Assembly: GCA_002238865.1 (NCBI GenBank)
Contig: MPNE01000003.1
Location: 1 to 64,000 of the forward strand
DNA from: Gemmatimonadetes bacterium bin94
GTDB lineage: Bacteria; Gemmatimonadota; Gemmatimonadetes; Longimicrobiales; Gaopeijiaceae
Length of the DNA: 64,000 bases
Direction of reading: 5' to 3'
Part shown: piece after piece, positions 6,170 through 35,462 of the stretch
Numbering within the stretch: the first letter of the stretch is position 1
How the letters are laid out: every line of letters starts with the position of its first letter
Made by a program: the position numbers and the translations under genes
Notes under the pieces: model-generated
Told to the model about the DNA's origin: nothing
The model's input: the letters and a program-made list of their open reading frames with translations, nothing else
The model's database searches: none

Positions 6170-7769
6170 CCATCTCAAAACGGGAATCGCCGTCTCCGCG
6201 GGGGCAGCACTGCTGCTCGCCGCCCCGGCAACCCGCGCGCAGGAACGCGCCATCGTCTCCAATCAGGTGGAGGTCGCCAACAACGCCGCGTCGCTCCACC
6301 TCGAATTGTCCGATGGCGAAGCTCTTGCGGTCACCCTCGCCGACGGTGTGGCCACCGTGAACGGAGAGGTGCTGGGGACATACGAGCCCGGTGGCCCCGT
6401 GGACCGGTCGTGGCGCGATCTCCTCGCCGACATCCTGACACTGACCAATGGCCCGCTCGCCCGGGAGCTCGGTGAATGGGACCCGGATACGGATCGCGGC
6501 GGGGCCGGGACGGGCCTTCTCCGCCAGCTCGATTTGGCGCTCGAAGGCGCGATCACCGGCGCGGAGGTGGAGAGGCCCCGGGCCAGAGATCCGGAGCGGC
6601 TGCAGAACCTGCTCGAGGTAATTGCCCGGAACGACAACATCCAGGGGCTGGGAGAGGCTCTCGACGATGTGGACCTCGAATCTCTCAGCATCTGGCTGCA
6701 TGAGGACCACACGATACCCGCGGAAGTGACGGTGATGGGAGACGTTCTCCTGGCCGGGGGCCGTCTCGATGTGCGCGGACGGGTGCGCGGCGACGTAATC
6801 GTCCTCGACGGAGATCTCACCCTGTCGGCGGAGGGCTCGATCGCAGGCGATGTCAGGCTTATCGAGGCCGAGTTGGATCGCGACGGCGGGACCATCGAGG
6901 GCAGGGTCGTCGATGTGTCCCGGGAACTGCGCATGGAGGAGGCGCAGGTCCGCGACAGGATCCGCGAGGAGCTGCAGCGCGAACTTGGTCGCGTGAGCAG
7001 CTCACGCGGCCAGGGCCGGGGCTTCTTCTCGAGAGTCGGCCGCGCCGCGGGCGGCATTCTGGAGTCCGTGCTGACCTTCCTGGTGGTGGGCGTCCTCACC
7101 CTGGTTCTGACCCGCTTCTGGGGAGAGCGCCTGGGAGTGGTCACCAGGGCGGTCGGACATCAACCGGGCCGGAGTGCGGTCGTCGGACTCGCGGGTGGTT
7201 TCGTGGCCTTGCCCGTCTATATCTGCGGCACGCTGGTTCTCGCGATCTCGATTGTGGGCATCCCCGTGCTGTTGGCCTGGGTGCCGTTCTTCCCGGTGGT
7301 GGTGGCCGTCGCAGGGTTCATGGGATACCTGGGCGTGAGCCATCACGTGGGAAGCTGGGTGCTCGACAGGGAAATTCCCTGGCTCGCCTGGGTCGACCGC
7401 AACCACGACACTCATGTAAGGCTGGTGGGAGTGGCGGCGATGTTGGCGCCCTTCTTGATCGCAAGCACTGTCCGGGTGCTCCCCCTGCTGGGGTGGTTCG
7501 GCGGACTCATTGCGGCACTCGGTACCGTCGTGGGCGTTCTGGCAACGGTCACGGGGCTCGGCGCAGTCATCATGACCCGCGGTGGCAGTCGTCCGGCAGG
7601 CTGGAGCTACGCGTTCGACGACGACGAATTCGAATCCGCCGCCTGGTCCTCTGCCGGTTACCGCGCCGATCCCGCGGCTGGCGGCGAGGACGGCGGACCG
7701 GGAGGCGCGGCCCCGGACGACGTAGCGAATGATTCCGGGCAAGACGAGGACGGGAGCGACGCCCCATGA
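6156..7769 (+). CDS. Exported bactofilin-like/multi-pass membrane protein
   Basis: A 537-residue protein with an N-terminal signal peptide (1-28, ending RAQ) and an extracytoplasmic part. Around residues 185-255 it has a repetitive beta-rich stretch (VTVMGDVLLAGGRLDVRG, VRGDVIVLDGDL, GSIAGDVRLIEA) typical of the polymer-forming/bactofilin fold. After a charged coiled region come about five membrane helices (near 300-322, 345-368, 372-392, 423-442, 446-472). The C-terminus is an acidic, Gly/Ala-rich tail. Similar polymer-forming plus multi-TM proteins exist in many diderms, but I know of no assigned reaction. It overlaps the anti-sigma gene upstream and the toast-rack gene downstream, so it is translated with them. 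Confidence 0.7.
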   Translation: MSQPSHLKTGIAVSAGAALLLAAPATRAQERAIVSNQVEVANNAASLHLELSDGEALAVTLADGVATVNGEVLGTYEPGGPVDRSWRDLLADILTLTNGPLARELGEWDPDTDRGGAGTGLLRQLDLALEGAITGAEVERPRARDPERLQNLLEVIARNDNIQGLGEALDDVDLESLSIWLHEDHTIPAEVTVMGDVLLAGGRLDVRGRVRGDVIVLDGDLTLSAEGSIAGDVRLIEAELDRDGGTIEGRVVDVSRELRMEEAQVRDRIREELQRELGRVSSSRGQGRGFFSRVGRAAGGILESVLTFLVVGVLTLVLTRFWGERLGVVTRAVGHQPGRSAVVGLAGGFVALPVYICGTLVLAISIVGIPVLLAWVPFFPVVVAVAGFMGYLGVSHHVGSWVLDREIPWLAWVDRNHDTHVRLVGVAAMLAPFLIASTVRVLPLLGWFGGLIAALGTVVGVLATVTGLGAVIMTRGGSRPAGWSYAFDDDEFESAAWSSAGYRADPAAGGEDGGPGGAAPDDVANDSGQDEDGSDAP

Positions 7770-31459: not shown

Positions 31460-31576
31460 ACACAGGCCGCCGGCCCCGATACGGCGCCAAGCGGGTTTTG
31501 CACGGTTTTGGCCTGAGAACTGTCTATTAAGGTAGAAGGCCACATCTTGTCAGTGAACGGAACTCCAGGAGGAACG
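31460..31576 (+). promoter_or_regulatory. Intergenic region before the cysteine-rich peptide cluster
   Basis: 117 bp between pdxA and the next gene. It contains the AT-rich TATTAAGG (31525-31532) with TTGCAC at 31498-31503; the spacing of 21 is too long for a consensus sigma-70 promoter, but an ECF-type promoter is possible. A strong ribosome site AGGAGGAA at 31568-31574 precedes the GTG at 31577. The break in operon spacing here suggests a new transcript starts. Confidence 0.35.
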
Positions 31577-32146
31577 GTGAGGGATCCGGCATTCATGACC
31601 CGGGCGGGGCTGGCGATTGCGCTGGCTGCTCTGGCGGTCATCCAGTTTGCGTTTCTGAGCCGACCGCCGGACAGTAATCGCAAGGGCCATGTGGCAGTGG
31701 GCGACGACCTGTCCGGCGTGCTTGTCCGTGGCGCCGACCCGATCCCGCGCACGCTCGCCGGGAATGGCGCCGTGCTCGTTCTGGTTTTCGACCCCGAGTG
31801 CGAGCACTCCCGGCGTGTCGCCGCCAAATGGCGTGCCTGGCTCCAGTCGCCCGGGGCTCCCCTGAACGTCGTCGCGCTCGCTCCCGGACCGTTTTCCAGG
31901 GCCCGGGACCATGCGGAGGACCACGGATGGACTCTACCGGTCCTGACGGTCGCCGATGGCCTGCCCGGAAGCCGGGAACACGCTCTGATCAGTCGCACGC
32001 CGTGGATCTTCGCACTGGACGCGAGCGGCCGGGTGACCGCGGATGGCCACGGAAGCGACCTGTCGGCAATCGCCGCAACCGTGACGCGACTCCCGACGGC
32101 GCAATTCGCGGCCCGGTCAGGGACCAGGGGGCTGTCGCACCGATGA
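31577..32146 (+). CDS. Membrane-anchored thioredoxin-fold protein
   Basis: A 189-residue protein with one N-terminal membrane helix (about 10-28) and an extracytoplasmic thioredoxin-like domain: VLVLVFDPECEHSRRVAAKWRAWLQ, then NVVALAPG, the cis-Pro region SRTPWIFALDASGRV. The active-site position holds a single cysteine, C75-E-H-S78 (CxxS), as in thiol-isomerase/peroxiredoxin-like and TlpA-like relatives. GTG 31577 is chosen for its AGGAGGAA site; a TTG at 31547 lacks one. It overlaps the downstream lipoprotein by 4 bp. Given the neighbouring peptide with eight cysteines, a role in its disulfide handling is an attractive inference. Confidence 0.7.
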   Translation: MRDPAFMTRAGLAIALAALAVIQFAFLSRPPDSNRKGHVAVGDDLSGVLVRGADPIPRTLAGNGAVLVLVFDPECEHSRRVAAKWRAWLQSPGAPLNVVALAPGPFSRARDHAEDHGWTLPVLTVADGLPGSREHALISRTPWIFALDASGRVTADGHGSDLSAIAATVTRLPTAQFAARSGTRGLSHR

Positions 32147-33288
32147 CGCCGCGAACGTTGTCCTCCCGGCTGGCCGCAACGATGGGCTTGCTGATCGCGG
32201 CCGCTGCCTGCCCGGCGCCCGAGCAACTCGAAATCGAGTTCCGCCAGATCCCGGCCGAGGCCATCTTCACCCGCTACCCGGAGCTGGATTTCACGAAGGT
32301 CCGGGAAGTCGGCGAGACCGCGGAGGCAATCTGGATCCTGGATGTGTCGCCACCCTTCCTTACCCGTATCGATCGCTCGACGGGTTCCGTGCGGCGAGGA
32401 GGGAGGCGCGGCGAGGGGCCCGCCGACTTCTCCTTCCCCGTGGCACTGCAGGTTGACCCGGAAGACGGCACGGCTCATGTGTGGGACCTTGGGATCCGGC
32501 GTCACACCGTGCTCGACCCCACGCTCTCCGTGGTGGTCTCACAACCCATCCATCCGGGAGCCATACCCGGGGGTCGATGGATGCTGGACATCTCCTACGC
32601 CGATCCGTACCGGATACGCAGGACCGCAGACGGCGTCCTGGCCGCCGACTTCTCCGTCAGGCTGGACCGTGCGACCGACATTGTACATGGCGCGGTGGTT
32701 CGAGTGACCCCCACGCTGGCCCCCGAACGCGAGCTGGTCCGGTTCGCCGAGCATCTTGCGCAAGACGGGGACGACCCGAAGGAGTTCGTGGCACTTCCAC
32801 GGTGGGATGCGTGCGGGTCCGACCTGGTGATCTGGCGGCCGGATGCCCACGACCTGGCCTGGTTGGACAGTGAGGGCGGCGTGCAGACGACCGTGCGTAT
32901 TCCGGGGCGCCCGTCGCCGATCAGCCACGCCGACATCGCCTCGTACCTGGAGGCAATGGCCCGAGTGGAGCTCGGCCCGGACTATGCCGATGCCGGCATC
33001 GATTTCACGGCCATGGCCAGGGAGGCCCGCCCCTTGTTCGCGGACCAGCTGCCCTTTGCCACCGAGGTCGTCTGCGCCGAGGGTGGCACCGCATGGCTGC
33101 GGCTCTTCGACAACCGAACCGACCCTCTGGGCCGGGGTCGCCGCTGGCTGCGGGTCAGCCGCTCCGGTGCGGTCGACCCCATCGAGTTTCCCGCCTTCTT
33201 CGAACCGGTTGCCGCAGCGGCTCGGGGACTGCTCGGGTCGTACGAGTCCCCGGACGGGCTCCGGTGGCTCGCCGAATGGATGGAATAG
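32143..33288 (+). CDS. Lipoprotein with beta-propeller-like repeats
   Basis: A 381-residue lipoprotein: signal with lipobox LIAAAAC (C23) after the basic MTPRTLSSR. The mature part has repeated strand blocks with propeller character (GETAEAIWILDVSPPFLTRID, GGRRGEGPADFSFPVALQVDP, AHVWDLGIRRHTVLD), like the 6-bladed beta-propeller/NHL-type lipoproteins of Bacteroidota and related phyla. No catalytic motif is visible. It is coupled to the thioredoxin-fold gene (ATGA) and precedes the cysteine-rich peptide by 36 bp. A propeller would suit peptide binding at the membrane surface; this is inference. Confidence 0.6.
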   Translation: MTPRTLSSRLAATMGLLIAAAACPAPEQLEIEFRQIPAEAIFTRYPELDFTKVREVGETAEAIWILDVSPPFLTRIDRSTGSVRRGGRRGEGPADFSFPVALQVDPEDGTAHVWDLGIRRHTVLDPTLSVVVSQPIHPGAIPGGRWMLDISYADPYRIRRTADGVLAADFSVRLDRATDIVHGAVVRVTPTLAPERELVRFAEHLAQDGDDPKEFVALPRWDACGSDLVIWRPDAHDLAWLDSEGGVQTTVRIPGRPSPISHADIASYLEAMARVELGPDYADAGIDFTAMAREARPLFADQLPFATEVVCAEGGTAWLRLFDNRTDPLGRGRRWLRVSRSGAVDPIEFPAFFEPVAAAARGLLGSYESPDGLRWLAEWME

Positions 33289-33324
33289 CACGTGGATGGA
33301 ACCGTTACCAACCGAGGAGATGGA

Positions 33325-33531
33325 ATGCGCAAGGGAATCATGATGGGCCTGGTCCTGCTGAACGTGCTGCTGGCGGTCGCACTCTTTGCGGCTCCGGCGC
33401 GAAGCTGGGTGTCGTCGTTCACGCTTTCGGACTGCTGTCAGGGCGAAGGAGCAAAGGCATACTGCTGCCGACAGTGCTGTTTACTCACCGAAAACTGCGA
33501 TTACGACAGTGACTGCCGGCCCGGCAGGTGA
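33325..33531 (+). CDS. Small secreted cysteine-rich peptide
   Basis: A 68-residue precursor. Residues 1-25 are a classic signal peptide: MRKG, a hydrophobic core LVLLNVLLAVALFA and a cleavage site A-P-A at 23-25. The predicted mature 43 residues contain eight cysteines (37, 38, 47, 48, 51, 52, 58, 64), three of them as adjacent CC pairs, and end CRPGR. GAGGAG at 33314-33319 precedes ATG 33325, and the next gene starts five bases after the stop, so it is translated within an operon. The cysteine density is far above that of its neighbours. It resembles in plan (not sequence) the secreted NVEALA-type peptides found beside propeller lipoproteins. No function known. Confidence 0.72.
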   Translation: MRKGIMMGLVLLNVLLAVALFAAPARSWVSSFTLSDCCQGEGAKAYCCRQCCLLTENCDYDSDCRPGR

Positions 33532-33535
33532 CGAC

Positions 33536-34369
33536 ATGTCCACAATGAGATGGCCGACCATGAAGTCCATGAGGGTCGTACTTAAGCCAACCCTTCAGTG
33601 GACCGGGGTGGTGGTGTGCGCAATCGTGGTGTTCCATACGCTGGCCGTGGCGCAGCCGCGGCCCTGGTCGGGGTGGGACTGGCTCTCGCACGTGTCCGGC
33701 CGGGCTGGCCTGATCATTCCATTCGCGGCCTTCGCAAGCGGCATCGTACTGCTGCGCAAGTGGAGGCAACGGGTCCGGCTGGCGTGGATGGCGGGACTCA
33801 TCGCGGCAGTGACCGCGTACACCCTGTCCGAGTTCGTTTCACCGCTCGCGGACTACGCCGAGTATGCCTCGGCCGAGGAAGCCTTCGAGACTCGCCCACT
33901 CGGCCCGAGGACTCCCTTCGGCAAGCTGCGGCAACTCCGCTTCGTGGAGGCGAACCCCCCTGCGGGAGGCTCGCCGCTCAGCAGTGATGCCAGCACGCCT
34001 CCCAACCGCGTCCGCCTGCTGCTTCACCTGCCGCTGGCCATGGGCGTGTTTACCCTCCTCAACATGCTGCTCGGTCTGCTGAGCGCCGAACTCACCCGAG
34101 CGCTGCGGCCTCCATCCCGCCGAAACGCCCGTTTCGCGATCGGTCTGGCCGGCGGCCTTGCGTACTTTGCCGCGGGCTACTTCGCGTCCCACCCCGAACG
34201 CGACTGGTTCAACGTCTCGGGAATCCTCGCTGCGTGGCTCCCCGTCGCCGTGCCCCTGATCCAGGCGGCCGCGTTTGCGGGATTGATATTGATCCGCTAC
34301 CGGGAAGGATTTCTCGGTGATCCGGCCCTTTCCGGGACACGTCCCTCCCCCGCACACGAAGGAATCTGA
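33536..34369 (+). CDS. Six-helix membrane protein of unknown function
   Basis: A 277-residue integral membrane protein. Predicted helices near 22-40, 58-76, 82-100, 165-188, 205-222 and 236-262; a hydrophilic loop of about 65 residues (SPLADYAEYASAEEAFETRP ... SSDASTPPNRV) separates helices 3 and 4. The three-loop-three plan recalls LptF/LptG permeases, whose loop is a much larger jellyroll, so I do not assign that family. AGGTGA at 33525-33531 acts as ribosome site and overlaps the peptide stop. Position suggests export, sensing or immunity for the peptide. Confidence 0.6.
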   Translation: MSTMRWPTMKSMRVVLKPTLQWTGVVVCAIVVFHTLAVAQPRPWSGWDWLSHVSGRAGLIIPFAAFASGIVLLRKWRQRVRLAWMAGLIAAVTAYTLSEFVSPLADYAEYASAEEAFETRPLGPRTPFGKLRQLRFVEANPPAGGSPLSSDASTPPNRVRLLLHLPLAMGVFTLLNMLLGLLSAELTRALRPPSRRNARFAIGLAGGLAYFAAGYFASHPERDWFNVSGILAAWLPVAVPLIQAAAFAGLILIRYREGFLGDPALSGTRPSPAHEGI

Positions 34370-34372
34370 GTC

Positions 34373-34816
34373 ATGCCCTGCCTCGACCTCGACGAGCTCC
34401 TCGTTCTCGGCCGGGATCACCGGCTTGCGGGGCCGGACGTGCGCGAGCACCTCGGAACCTGTGACACATGCAAGCTGGATCTGATCATCATGACCGGGCT
34501 CAGCTCCCTCTATCTTCCCGAGGGGAGCGTCGTCCCCCAAACGCAGGTGCCGCCCGGTCTCAACAGGCGTGCCCTCGCCAGGATCGCGCGCAGGCGGGTC
34601 CGCCGGGCCGACGTCCGTCCCGCGGACAATCTGGTCGCGGTGGCAATCGGCGCGGCGACGGTGCTGGCGGCGGTTTTCGTGACCGGAACGGTCAGCGCCC
34701 CCGGAGTCACGTCCACTGAACTCGCACTCCTCGCCGCCGCGGGGGGCATGGCTGCGGCGTGGATGCAGTCCAAAGCCGGAAAACGGGATGTCGCTCAGGC
34801 ACTCGAGCTGATTTGA
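34373..34816 (+). CDS. Zinc-finger anti-sigma factor candidate
   Basis: A 147-residue protein three bases after the membrane protein. The N-terminal part contains H-L-G-T-C-D-T-C at about 26-33, the HxxxCxxC core of zf-HC2/ZAS anti-sigma domains. A basic linker (RRALARIARRRVRRADVR) is followed by two hydrophobic segments (about 86-108 and 116-132). The ECF sigma gene begins 40 bp downstream. In known pairs such proteins tether and inhibit the cognate sigma factor until a signal arrives. Here the anti-sigma gene precedes the sigma gene, the reverse of the usual order. Confidence 0.68.
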   Translation: MPCLDLDELLVLGRDHRLAGPDVREHLGTCDTCKLDLIIMTGLSSLYLPEGSVVPQTQVPPGLNRRALARIARRRVRRADVRPADNLVAVAIGAATVLAAVFVTGTVSAPGVTSTELALLAAAGGMAAAWMQSKAGKRDVAQALELI

Positions 34817-34856
34817 TCCCGATCGTTCCGGCGCCCTTATCCGACGCTCGCGACCC

Positions 34857-35462
34857 ATGACTGGCCGCCCGCCGGGGCAGCGGTTCGACGCCGCGAGATT
34901 CCTCTCGCGGGATCACGACTACTGCCGCAGCATCGTGGAGGAACACGCTTCCTTCGTCCTTGGTGTGTGCAGGTTGTACGCGAGGGACCGCGACCACGCT
35001 GAGGACCTCTACCAGGAGACGTGGCTGAAGGCATACGAGAAGGCGCGCACCTACAGGGGCACCGGATCCTTCCGGGCCTGGCTGGGCCGGCTGGCCCGGA
35101 ACGTCTGCGTTAGCGATTACCGTTCCCGCACGTCGGCGGCACGGAGCCTCGAGCTCTACGCGGGCGAGCATGCCATCGACGACCCCGCCAGCCGGCAGCA
35201 CGATCCGCTTGAGGAGCGGGAACGGGCCGCCCTGCAACGGACGATCCTGGACGCCATCGACGACTTGCCTCGGAGGGAAGGCCAGGCGCTCACCCTGAGG
35301 CTGATCGACGAGAAGAGTCCGCGCGAAGTGGCACGGATCATGCGCGTTTCCCCGGCGACGGTCCGGTCCCACGTCCGCCACGCATTCGCGCGGCTGCGCA
35401 ACCGCATCGCGGACCCTGCCGACGAGTTATCCTCGCTCACCCGGTTCCGGCCGGAGCGCTGA
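34857..35462 (+). CDS. RNA polymerase sigma factor, ECF family
   Basis: A 201-residue ECF sigma factor. Region 2 at about 28-95 (HASFVLGVCRLYARDRDHAEDLYQETW, GSFRAWLGRLARNVCVSDYRSR) and region 4 at about 130-185 (LQRTILDAIDDLPRREGQALTLRLIDEKSPREVARIMRVSPATVRSHVRHAFARL; shown in parts). It is clearly distinct from the ECF factor at 4.6 kb. It closes the same-strand cluster that begins with the thioredoxin-fold gene, so its regulon may include the cysteine-rich peptide. ATG 34857 gives the full domain with a short N-terminal extension. Confidence 0.88.
   Translation: MTGRPPGQRFDAARFLSRDHDYCRSIVEEHASFVLGVCRLYARDRDHAEDLYQETWLKAYEKARTYRGTGSFRAWLGRLARNVCVSDYRSRTSAARSLELYAGEHAIDDPASRQHDPLEERERAALQRTILDAIDDLPRREGQALTLRLIDEKSPREVARIMRVSPATVRSHVRHAFARLRNRIADPADELSSLTRFRPER

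Follow-up and report, generated by a model that had tools for sequence, protein, structure and literature searches.

A six-gene set with its own sigma factor

We analyzed a set of six adjoining genes in Gemmatimonadetes bacterium bin94 (GCA_002238865.1), whose genome assembly comprises 4.42 Mb in 83 contigs. The set lies in the window, the stretch of 64,000 nucleotides of contig MPNE01000003.1 that was examined as a whole. It encodes a thioredoxin-fold protein (TRX), a propeller lipoprotein (PROP), the precursor of an eight-cysteine peptide (PEP), a six-helix membrane protein (TM6), an anti-sigma factor candidate (ASF), and an extracytoplasmic function sigma factor (ECF) (Table 1). An earlier note on the window, made from its sequence alone, had proposed that these genes could together make, fold, sense, or export a disulfide-rich peptide under the control of envelope signals.

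All six open reading frames (ORFs) are present on the plus strand as that note had described, with gaps of -4, 36, 4, 3, and 40 nt in gene order. The start sites are backed by Shine-Dalgarno-like sequences and by comparison with relatives. We also verified the individual features named at the time: a CEHS site in TRX, the lipobox-like sequence AAAC in PROP, eight cysteines in the 68 residues of PEP, HLGTCDTC in ASF, and a sigma-70 protein with regions 2 and 4. The association of the gene set is far beyond chance. The arrangement, including the sigma/anti-sigma pair, is kept in relatives as one recurring module, and this Gemmatimonadota bacterium carries several copies of the previously unnamed gene set. 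Thus, the original observation is confirmed, and the interpretation placed on it is partly supported. The six-helix protein turned out to be LptF/LptG-like, which changed the mechanistic picture. As the earlier note had supposed, our search of the open-access literature brought up no account of a system of this kind.

Table 1. Genes and promoter-like element of the six-gene locus, in window coordinates
Feature	Length	Coordinates	Strand	Description
Promoter-like element TTGCAC-N16-CTGTC(TATTAA)		31498..31530	+	motif shared with the modules of relatives
Thioredoxin-fold protein (TRX)	189 aa	31577..32146	+	membrane-anchored, TlpA/AhpC-TSA type
Propeller lipoprotein (PROP)	381 aa	32143..33288	+	lipobox AAAC
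Eight-Cys peptide precursor (PEP)	68 aa	33325..33531	+	signal peptide and mature part of ~40 residues
LptF/LptG-fold membrane protein (TM6)	277 aa	33536..34369	+	without periplasmic jellyroll
Class I zinc-type anti-sigma candidate (ASF)	147 aa	34373..34816	+	Hx3Cx2C and C-terminal hydrophobic hairpin
ECF sigma factor (ECF)	201 aa	34857..35462	+	regions 2 and 4

A peptide family with eight invariant cysteines

The cysteines in the mature part of PEP follow the pattern CC-x8-CC-xx-CC-x5-C-x5-C. When we searched with the 68-aa precursor, three homologues turned up in the genome of the window, and 29 of 98 relatives also had matches. A profile search detected the peptide in 27 of 395 genomes of the phylum, mostly in a single genus, where 20 of 23 genomes carry between one and seven copies each. 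Beyond that genus, it was present in a few genomes of the same family, and a different family of the class contributed one certain member; in all, PEP has about 55 relatives in the phylum. An alignment of 50 sequences shows no variation at any of the eight cysteines or at Asn13, which lies in the hydrophobic segment of the signal peptide, and Tyr46 is nearly invariant. Conservation of all eight cysteines in relatives had been set beforehand as a check on the module idea, and the idea passed it. PEP also changes most slowly of the six gene products. Among orthologues with the arrangement of the window (type A, below), its nonsynonymous distance (dN) to the window copy is 0.25-0.28, versus 0.33-0.65 for the others.

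There was no profile match above cut-off for the family in Pfam or NCBIfam (35 peptides searched) or in the PDB. A model predicted by AlphaFold2 (AF2) has a helical leader followed by a compact cysteine-rich part; Foldseek gave no match to this model, although its fold may still be a known one. Scanning a sequence collection for the cysteine pattern, we recognized real homologues in four records among the matches listed, and the three identified by title are from Gemmatimonadota, though members may exist elsewhere. The same scan of a viral collection gave no homologue of the peptide among the matches listed. A divergent 68-aa peptide with seven cysteines (CCVGEVCEPKGCLFRSDCLEDRDC) is encoded beside TRX, TM6, and ECF genes in another genus (L377, 7497-7703). 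The peptide gene is present as two tandem copies at L065 (1963-2522), and a TRX-PROP-PEP unit is repeated three times in tandem at L080 (2753-16169).

Arrangements of the module and linkage of its genes

The six-gene set occupies the same chromosomal place in four relatives (L035 to L038), between what we take, from reading the sequence, to be a pdxA-like gene upstream and a DNA polymerase III delta-prime-like gene downstream. This is the type A arrangement, TRX-PROP-PEP-TM6-ASF-ECF on one strand. In type B, TRX is divergent from PEP-TM6-ECF-ASF. Type C consists of ECF, TRX, PROP, and PEP, followed by another membrane protein and a regulator that reads as AraC-like from its sequence; by profile comparison, this membrane protein matches TM6 (probability 89.7, E 1.9e-6). 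Type D has ECF, TRX, and PEP.

We counted neighbors within 5 kb at the 44 peptide loci that had at least 3.5 kb of sequence on each side. An ECF gene was found at 42 of these loci, TRX at 39, TM6 at 24, a recognizable anti-sigma gene at 15, and a homologue of the window's PROP at 14; these counts, like the motif counts and Fisher tests given below, come in part from genomes related to one another and do not represent independent events. The earlier note had asked whether the peptide always keeps the same company. It does so, to a large extent, for TRX and ECF, and only in part for the propeller. Other propeller genes are located near many of the remaining peptide loci or under the same promoter motif.

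The pairing with TRX is particularly close. In the genome of the window there are exactly three members of the TRX family, and they are paired one to one with the three peptide genes. Ten genomes of the genus yielded 33 TRX-family matches, nearly all within ~3 kb of a peptide gene; those seen away from peptide genes were one on G016:C188 and two on G014:C26. The three genomes of the genus that have no peptide gene are also without the TRX family and the promoter motif.

The thioredoxin-fold partner and the propeller lipoprotein

TRX of the window has one N-terminal hydrophobic segment, the monothiol active site CEHS in place of a dithiol CxxC, and the cis-Pro motif RTPW. Across the family, C75, P142, and W143 are invariant, and the active site is CxHS/T in most copies and CxxC in a minority. 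Nine of 30 members match PF00578 (best E 2.1e-6). The window protein itself matches neither PF00578 nor any other curated family. With a profile match, the cis-Pro, and the active-site cysteine, the family belongs to the thioredoxin-like AhpC-TSA/TlpA superfamily. A single thiol in a thioredoxin fold would fit retention or isomerization by mixed disulfides better than net oxidation. At one type B module in the genome of the window (L034, contig C55), the TRX gene is directly followed by a gene for a QhpE-like subtilisin (6397-7152), a possible processing protease.

PROP is 52-53% identical to its counterparts in the type A relatives. Three of the 20 proteins in the PROP alignment match the 6-bladed beta-propeller family PF17170 (best E 7.9e-9), and the window protein has no match to that or any other curated family. 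An unrelated second set with the same plan is present elsewhere in the genome (L362, contig C22, 7847-9764). It encodes a propeller lipoprotein, a thioredoxin-like protein with a CxGC site, and a 61-aa peptide ending in CWSACPGTGWCCYEL.

A six-helix protein with an LptF/LptG-like fold

The six helices ascribed to TM6 in the earlier note are indeed predicted, but they do not form an arbitrary membrane protein. The AF2 model, built from 27 sequences, has a predicted local distance difference test (pLDDT) score of 87.9 and a predicted template modeling (pTM) score of 0.84, and superimposes on LptG (6mjp_G) with a VIA Z of 18.7 and a root-mean-square deviation of 3.3 over 231 residues. LptG and LptF chains lead the structure matches, the next unrelated family having a Z of 9.0, and Foldseek agrees (probability 1.00, E 0.012). 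At the level of sequence, 12 of 27 family members match PF03739 weakly (best E 0.0012); the window protein scores 11.8 bits, below the gathering score of 27.9, and a family profile search of the PDB gave no match.

The model has no strands that could make up a jellyroll. The stretch between helices 3 and 4 is only ~45 residues long and contains two short helices. Between helices 2 and 3, the site of the LptB-coupling helix in LptF and LptG, there are four residues, so that TM6 probably lacks this helix; the alignment of the TM6 profile with the single LptF and LptG sequences of the same genome is too weak to prove its deletion. A canonical LptF/LptG pair is encoded elsewhere in the genome, which marks TM6 as a side branch. 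Because two features that we tested are absent, we do not file TM6 as an LptF or LptG protein despite its fold.

In one relative (L038, 8208-9443), TM6 and the anti-sigma factor are fused in a single ORF of 412 aa, suggesting that the two work together. A partial fusion of the same kind is found at L036. TM6 appears to be the best candidate for the sensor, since its gene adjoins or is fused to the anti-sigma gene and is present without the peptide at several ECF loci.

The sigma/anti-sigma pair and a shared promoter-like motif

The sigma factor of the window has sigma-70 regions 2 and 4 (Sigma70_r2, 1.2e-17; Sigma70_r4_2, 1.6e-11, both above the Pfam cut-off) and no region 3, as expected for an ECF factor, and matches the NCBIfam model TIGR02937 at 1.4e-27 (96.3 bits versus a cut-off of 42.9). 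ASF matches an NCBIfam anti-sigma model below that model's cut-off (E 6.9e-5). Its Hx3Cx2C motif is present in 16 of 16 homologues, is located in the N-terminal cytoplasmic part, and the gene is beside that of the ECF factor, which together correspond to the zinc type of class I (ASDI) as defined previously (PMC7406223). Judged by sequence, the set belongs to the kind with an ECF factor and a class I anti-sigma factor, and ASF is predicted to bind and inhibit the sigma factor.

At a distance of 79 nt (start to start), the window operon is preceded by TTGCAC-N16-CTGTC with an A+T-rich stretch after it. Type B loci have two copies of the motif between their divergent genes, one facing each way, ahead of the TRX and peptide genes. 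We searched genomes for the pattern and used the reversed pattern as a control. In the genome of the window, the strict form had 11 matches, seven of them at the three modules, versus none for the control. Over 59 genomes there were 82 matches in the 23 genomes of the genus versus one in the other 36. Within the genus, the motif was present in 19 of the 20 genomes with the peptide and 0 of the 3 without it. At sites outside the modules, a propeller ORF was located within 2.6 kb downstream of 17 of 46 sites versus 2 of 46 in the opposite direction (Fisher p 1.7e-4).

The motif is also found in other settings. At L392, L402, L393, L395, and L418 it immediately precedes a further ECF sigma gene and genes for LuxR-type response regulators, an arrangement that suggests a regulatory cascade. 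Locus L358 (G000:C37, 1690-8000) contains a quinohemoprotein amine dehydrogenase cluster with a QhpD-like radical SAM protein, a gamma subunit, and a beta-like propeller. This cluster is followed by the promoter motif and then by genes for a 165-aa lipoprotein that contains cysteine, for an ABC transporter resembling MsbA, and for a propeller.

A proposed mechanism and its alternatives

We think it fairly probable that the gene set is a self-regulated envelope sigma module whose outputs are a disulfide-rich peptide and propeller lipoproteins. This proposal builds on what the sequences show, namely gene linkage, conservation, the six-helix fold, and the shared promoter-like motif; from these we infer that this sigma factor uses the promoters, that the cysteines form disulfides, that the components touch one another, and that there is feedback. 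The Hx3Cx2C anti-sigma factor, in the membrane next to TM6, would hold the ECF factor. TM6 would be a derivative of LptF/LptG, and the loss of the jellyroll and probably of the ATPase-coupling helix suggests for it the role of a sensor or scaffold and not that of a pump. Once freed, the sigma factor would transcribe its own operon, the sister operons, and genes for 6-bladed propeller lipoproteins from TTGCAC-N16-CTGTC promoters. The dedicated output would be a Sec-exported peptide of ~40 residues with eight cysteines, through which the co-transcribed, membrane-anchored monothiol TRX may fold or hold it. The mature peptide likely has the propeller lipoprotein as its partner or as the platform that displays it, and the peptide would probably feed back on the periplasmic loop of TM6. 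We can offer only tentatively the complete signaling circuit, in which a peptide charged or held by TRX and displayed by the propeller is read by a transport-dead descendant of LptF/LptG that controls the anti-sigma factor. If this is true, the receptor for a disulfide-rich peptide was recruited from an ancient fold of lipid export.

Several findings weigh against a self-regulated module with the peptide as its output. The AF2 model of the peptide is of moderate quality (pLDDT 75, pTM 0.41). Six loci with an LptF/G-like protein and an ECF factor (L364, L367, L369, L371, L373, and L375), several of them preceded by the motif, have no recognizable peptide gene, indicating that the pair of regulators can work where the peptide is missing. 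We saw no such motif in front of the type C and type D modules; their ECF factors are different ones, and other sigma factors would thus serve them. Some of the 46 motif sites outside the modules are chance matches or coding sequence. Among them, at least seven, each from a different one of seven genomes, belong to a single conserved stretch at a MobA/XdhC-like locus that appears to be coding sequence and not a promoter.

The same genes could instead form a module for redox or metal stress, with the peptide acting as a periplasmic thiol buffer or metal binder that TRX keeps reduced or metallated, and with the zinc site of the anti-sigma factor and TM6 sensing the same stress. Cysteine is nearly the only type of residue that is strictly conserved in the peptide, TRX is a monothiol protein in most copies and has CxxC in others, and anti-sigma factors with Hx3Cx2C can sense redox state (PMC7406223). 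However, the zinc motif is present in half of the membrane-bound class I anti-sigma factors and may be structural rather than sensory (PMC7406223), the candidate regulon consists of propeller lipoproteins and not of reductases or metal pumps, and the neighbor clusters show no recurrent gene for metal transport next to the module. We regard this explanation as unlikely. It seems very unlikely that the peptide is a bacteriocin, a toxin, or the precursor of a ribosomal natural product, accompanied by maturation and immunity proteins. Such a role would suit a small, exported, cysteine-rich peptide that is encoded in a regulated operon and has multiple divergent copies per genome, but within the operon no protein evolves more slowly than this peptide, which is under purifying selection, and in the neighborhoods we saw no recurrent gene for a peptidase-ABC exporter, a modifying enzyme, or immunity.

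Equally hard to credit is the possibility that the peptide is the small, cofactor-bearing subunit of a periplasmic dehydrogenase, like methylamine or quinohemoprotein amine dehydrogenase, which combine a propeller, a cysteine-rich subunit, and a MauD-like thioredoxin in the same three-part plan. Two of the 35 peptides touch the QH_gamma model (NF037958; best E 0.029), far under its cut-off, whereas the true gamma subunit at L358 scores 118.8 bits. The QhpE-like protease next to one module (L034) and the motif site within the amine dehydrogenase cluster (L358) would also fit. But those enzymes build their cofactor on tryptophan, which is not invariant in the peptide, and among the neighbors of the peptide gene we saw no recurrent radical SAM, heme, or quinone-maturation gene. 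The genes might, finally, be chance neighbors of an ECF pair that controls something else, given that the propeller and the type of anti-sigma factor differ between copies and that types B, C, and D have their genes in other orders. The linkage statistics for the peptide, TRX, and ECF genes refute this, as do the one-to-one pairing of peptide and TRX, their near-complete linkage across the genus, and the joint loss of peptide, TRX family, and motif from three genomes; we give it practically no credence.

Comparison with known systems

The analysis adds a peptide family with invariant cysteines and no match in the curated libraries searched, tied to a regulatory circuit and to a genome-wide promoter motif, and it links an LptF/LptG-type fold minus its jellyroll to an anti-sigma factor. 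For uncultured sponge-associated and marine Gemmatimonadota, it provides an envelope-signaling system that can be tested.

With known pairs of an ECF factor and a membrane-bound class I anti-sigma factor, the module shares a sigma factor with regions 2 and 4 only, an adjoining Hx3Cx2C membrane anti-sigma factor, and a motif before its own operon. Unlike them, it joins these parts to an LptF/LptG-fold protein, which at L038 forms one ORF with the anti-sigma factor, and to a cysteine-rich peptide predicted to be secreted; we found no report of such a combination in the open-access literature searched. TM6 has the six-helix fold of the LptF/LptG permeases (PF03739) of lipopolysaccharide export, but it is without the jellyroll, falls below the Pfam cut-off, and has no LptB, LptA, or LptC gene beside it. 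The sets for methylamine and quinohemoprotein amine dehydrogenases likewise combine a propeller, a small cysteine-rich subunit, and a membrane thioredoxin-like protein; here the thioredoxin-like protein is a monothiol CxHS protein, the genes are under apparent sigma-factor control, and neither the cofactor tryptophan nor the maturation enzymes were found.

In the NVEALA loci of Bacteroidota, a small exported peptide is encoded beside a 6-bladed propeller lipoprotein and a thiol protein. The earlier note had drawn this parallel while stating that the sequences differ, and they do: none of the 35 peptides matches an NVEALA model of Pfam or NCBIfam, and the NVEALA motif is absent from the peptide sequences. 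The searched open-access literature yielded no description of NVEALA or propeller-peptide systems. The shared plan of a small exported peptide with a propeller lipoprotein and a thiol protein is best taken as an analogy, and the module described here differs in having a dedicated sigma/anti-sigma pair and an LptF/G-like protein. As such, it may serve as a concrete parallel to the unexplained loci of Bacteroidota in which a propeller accompanies a small peptide.

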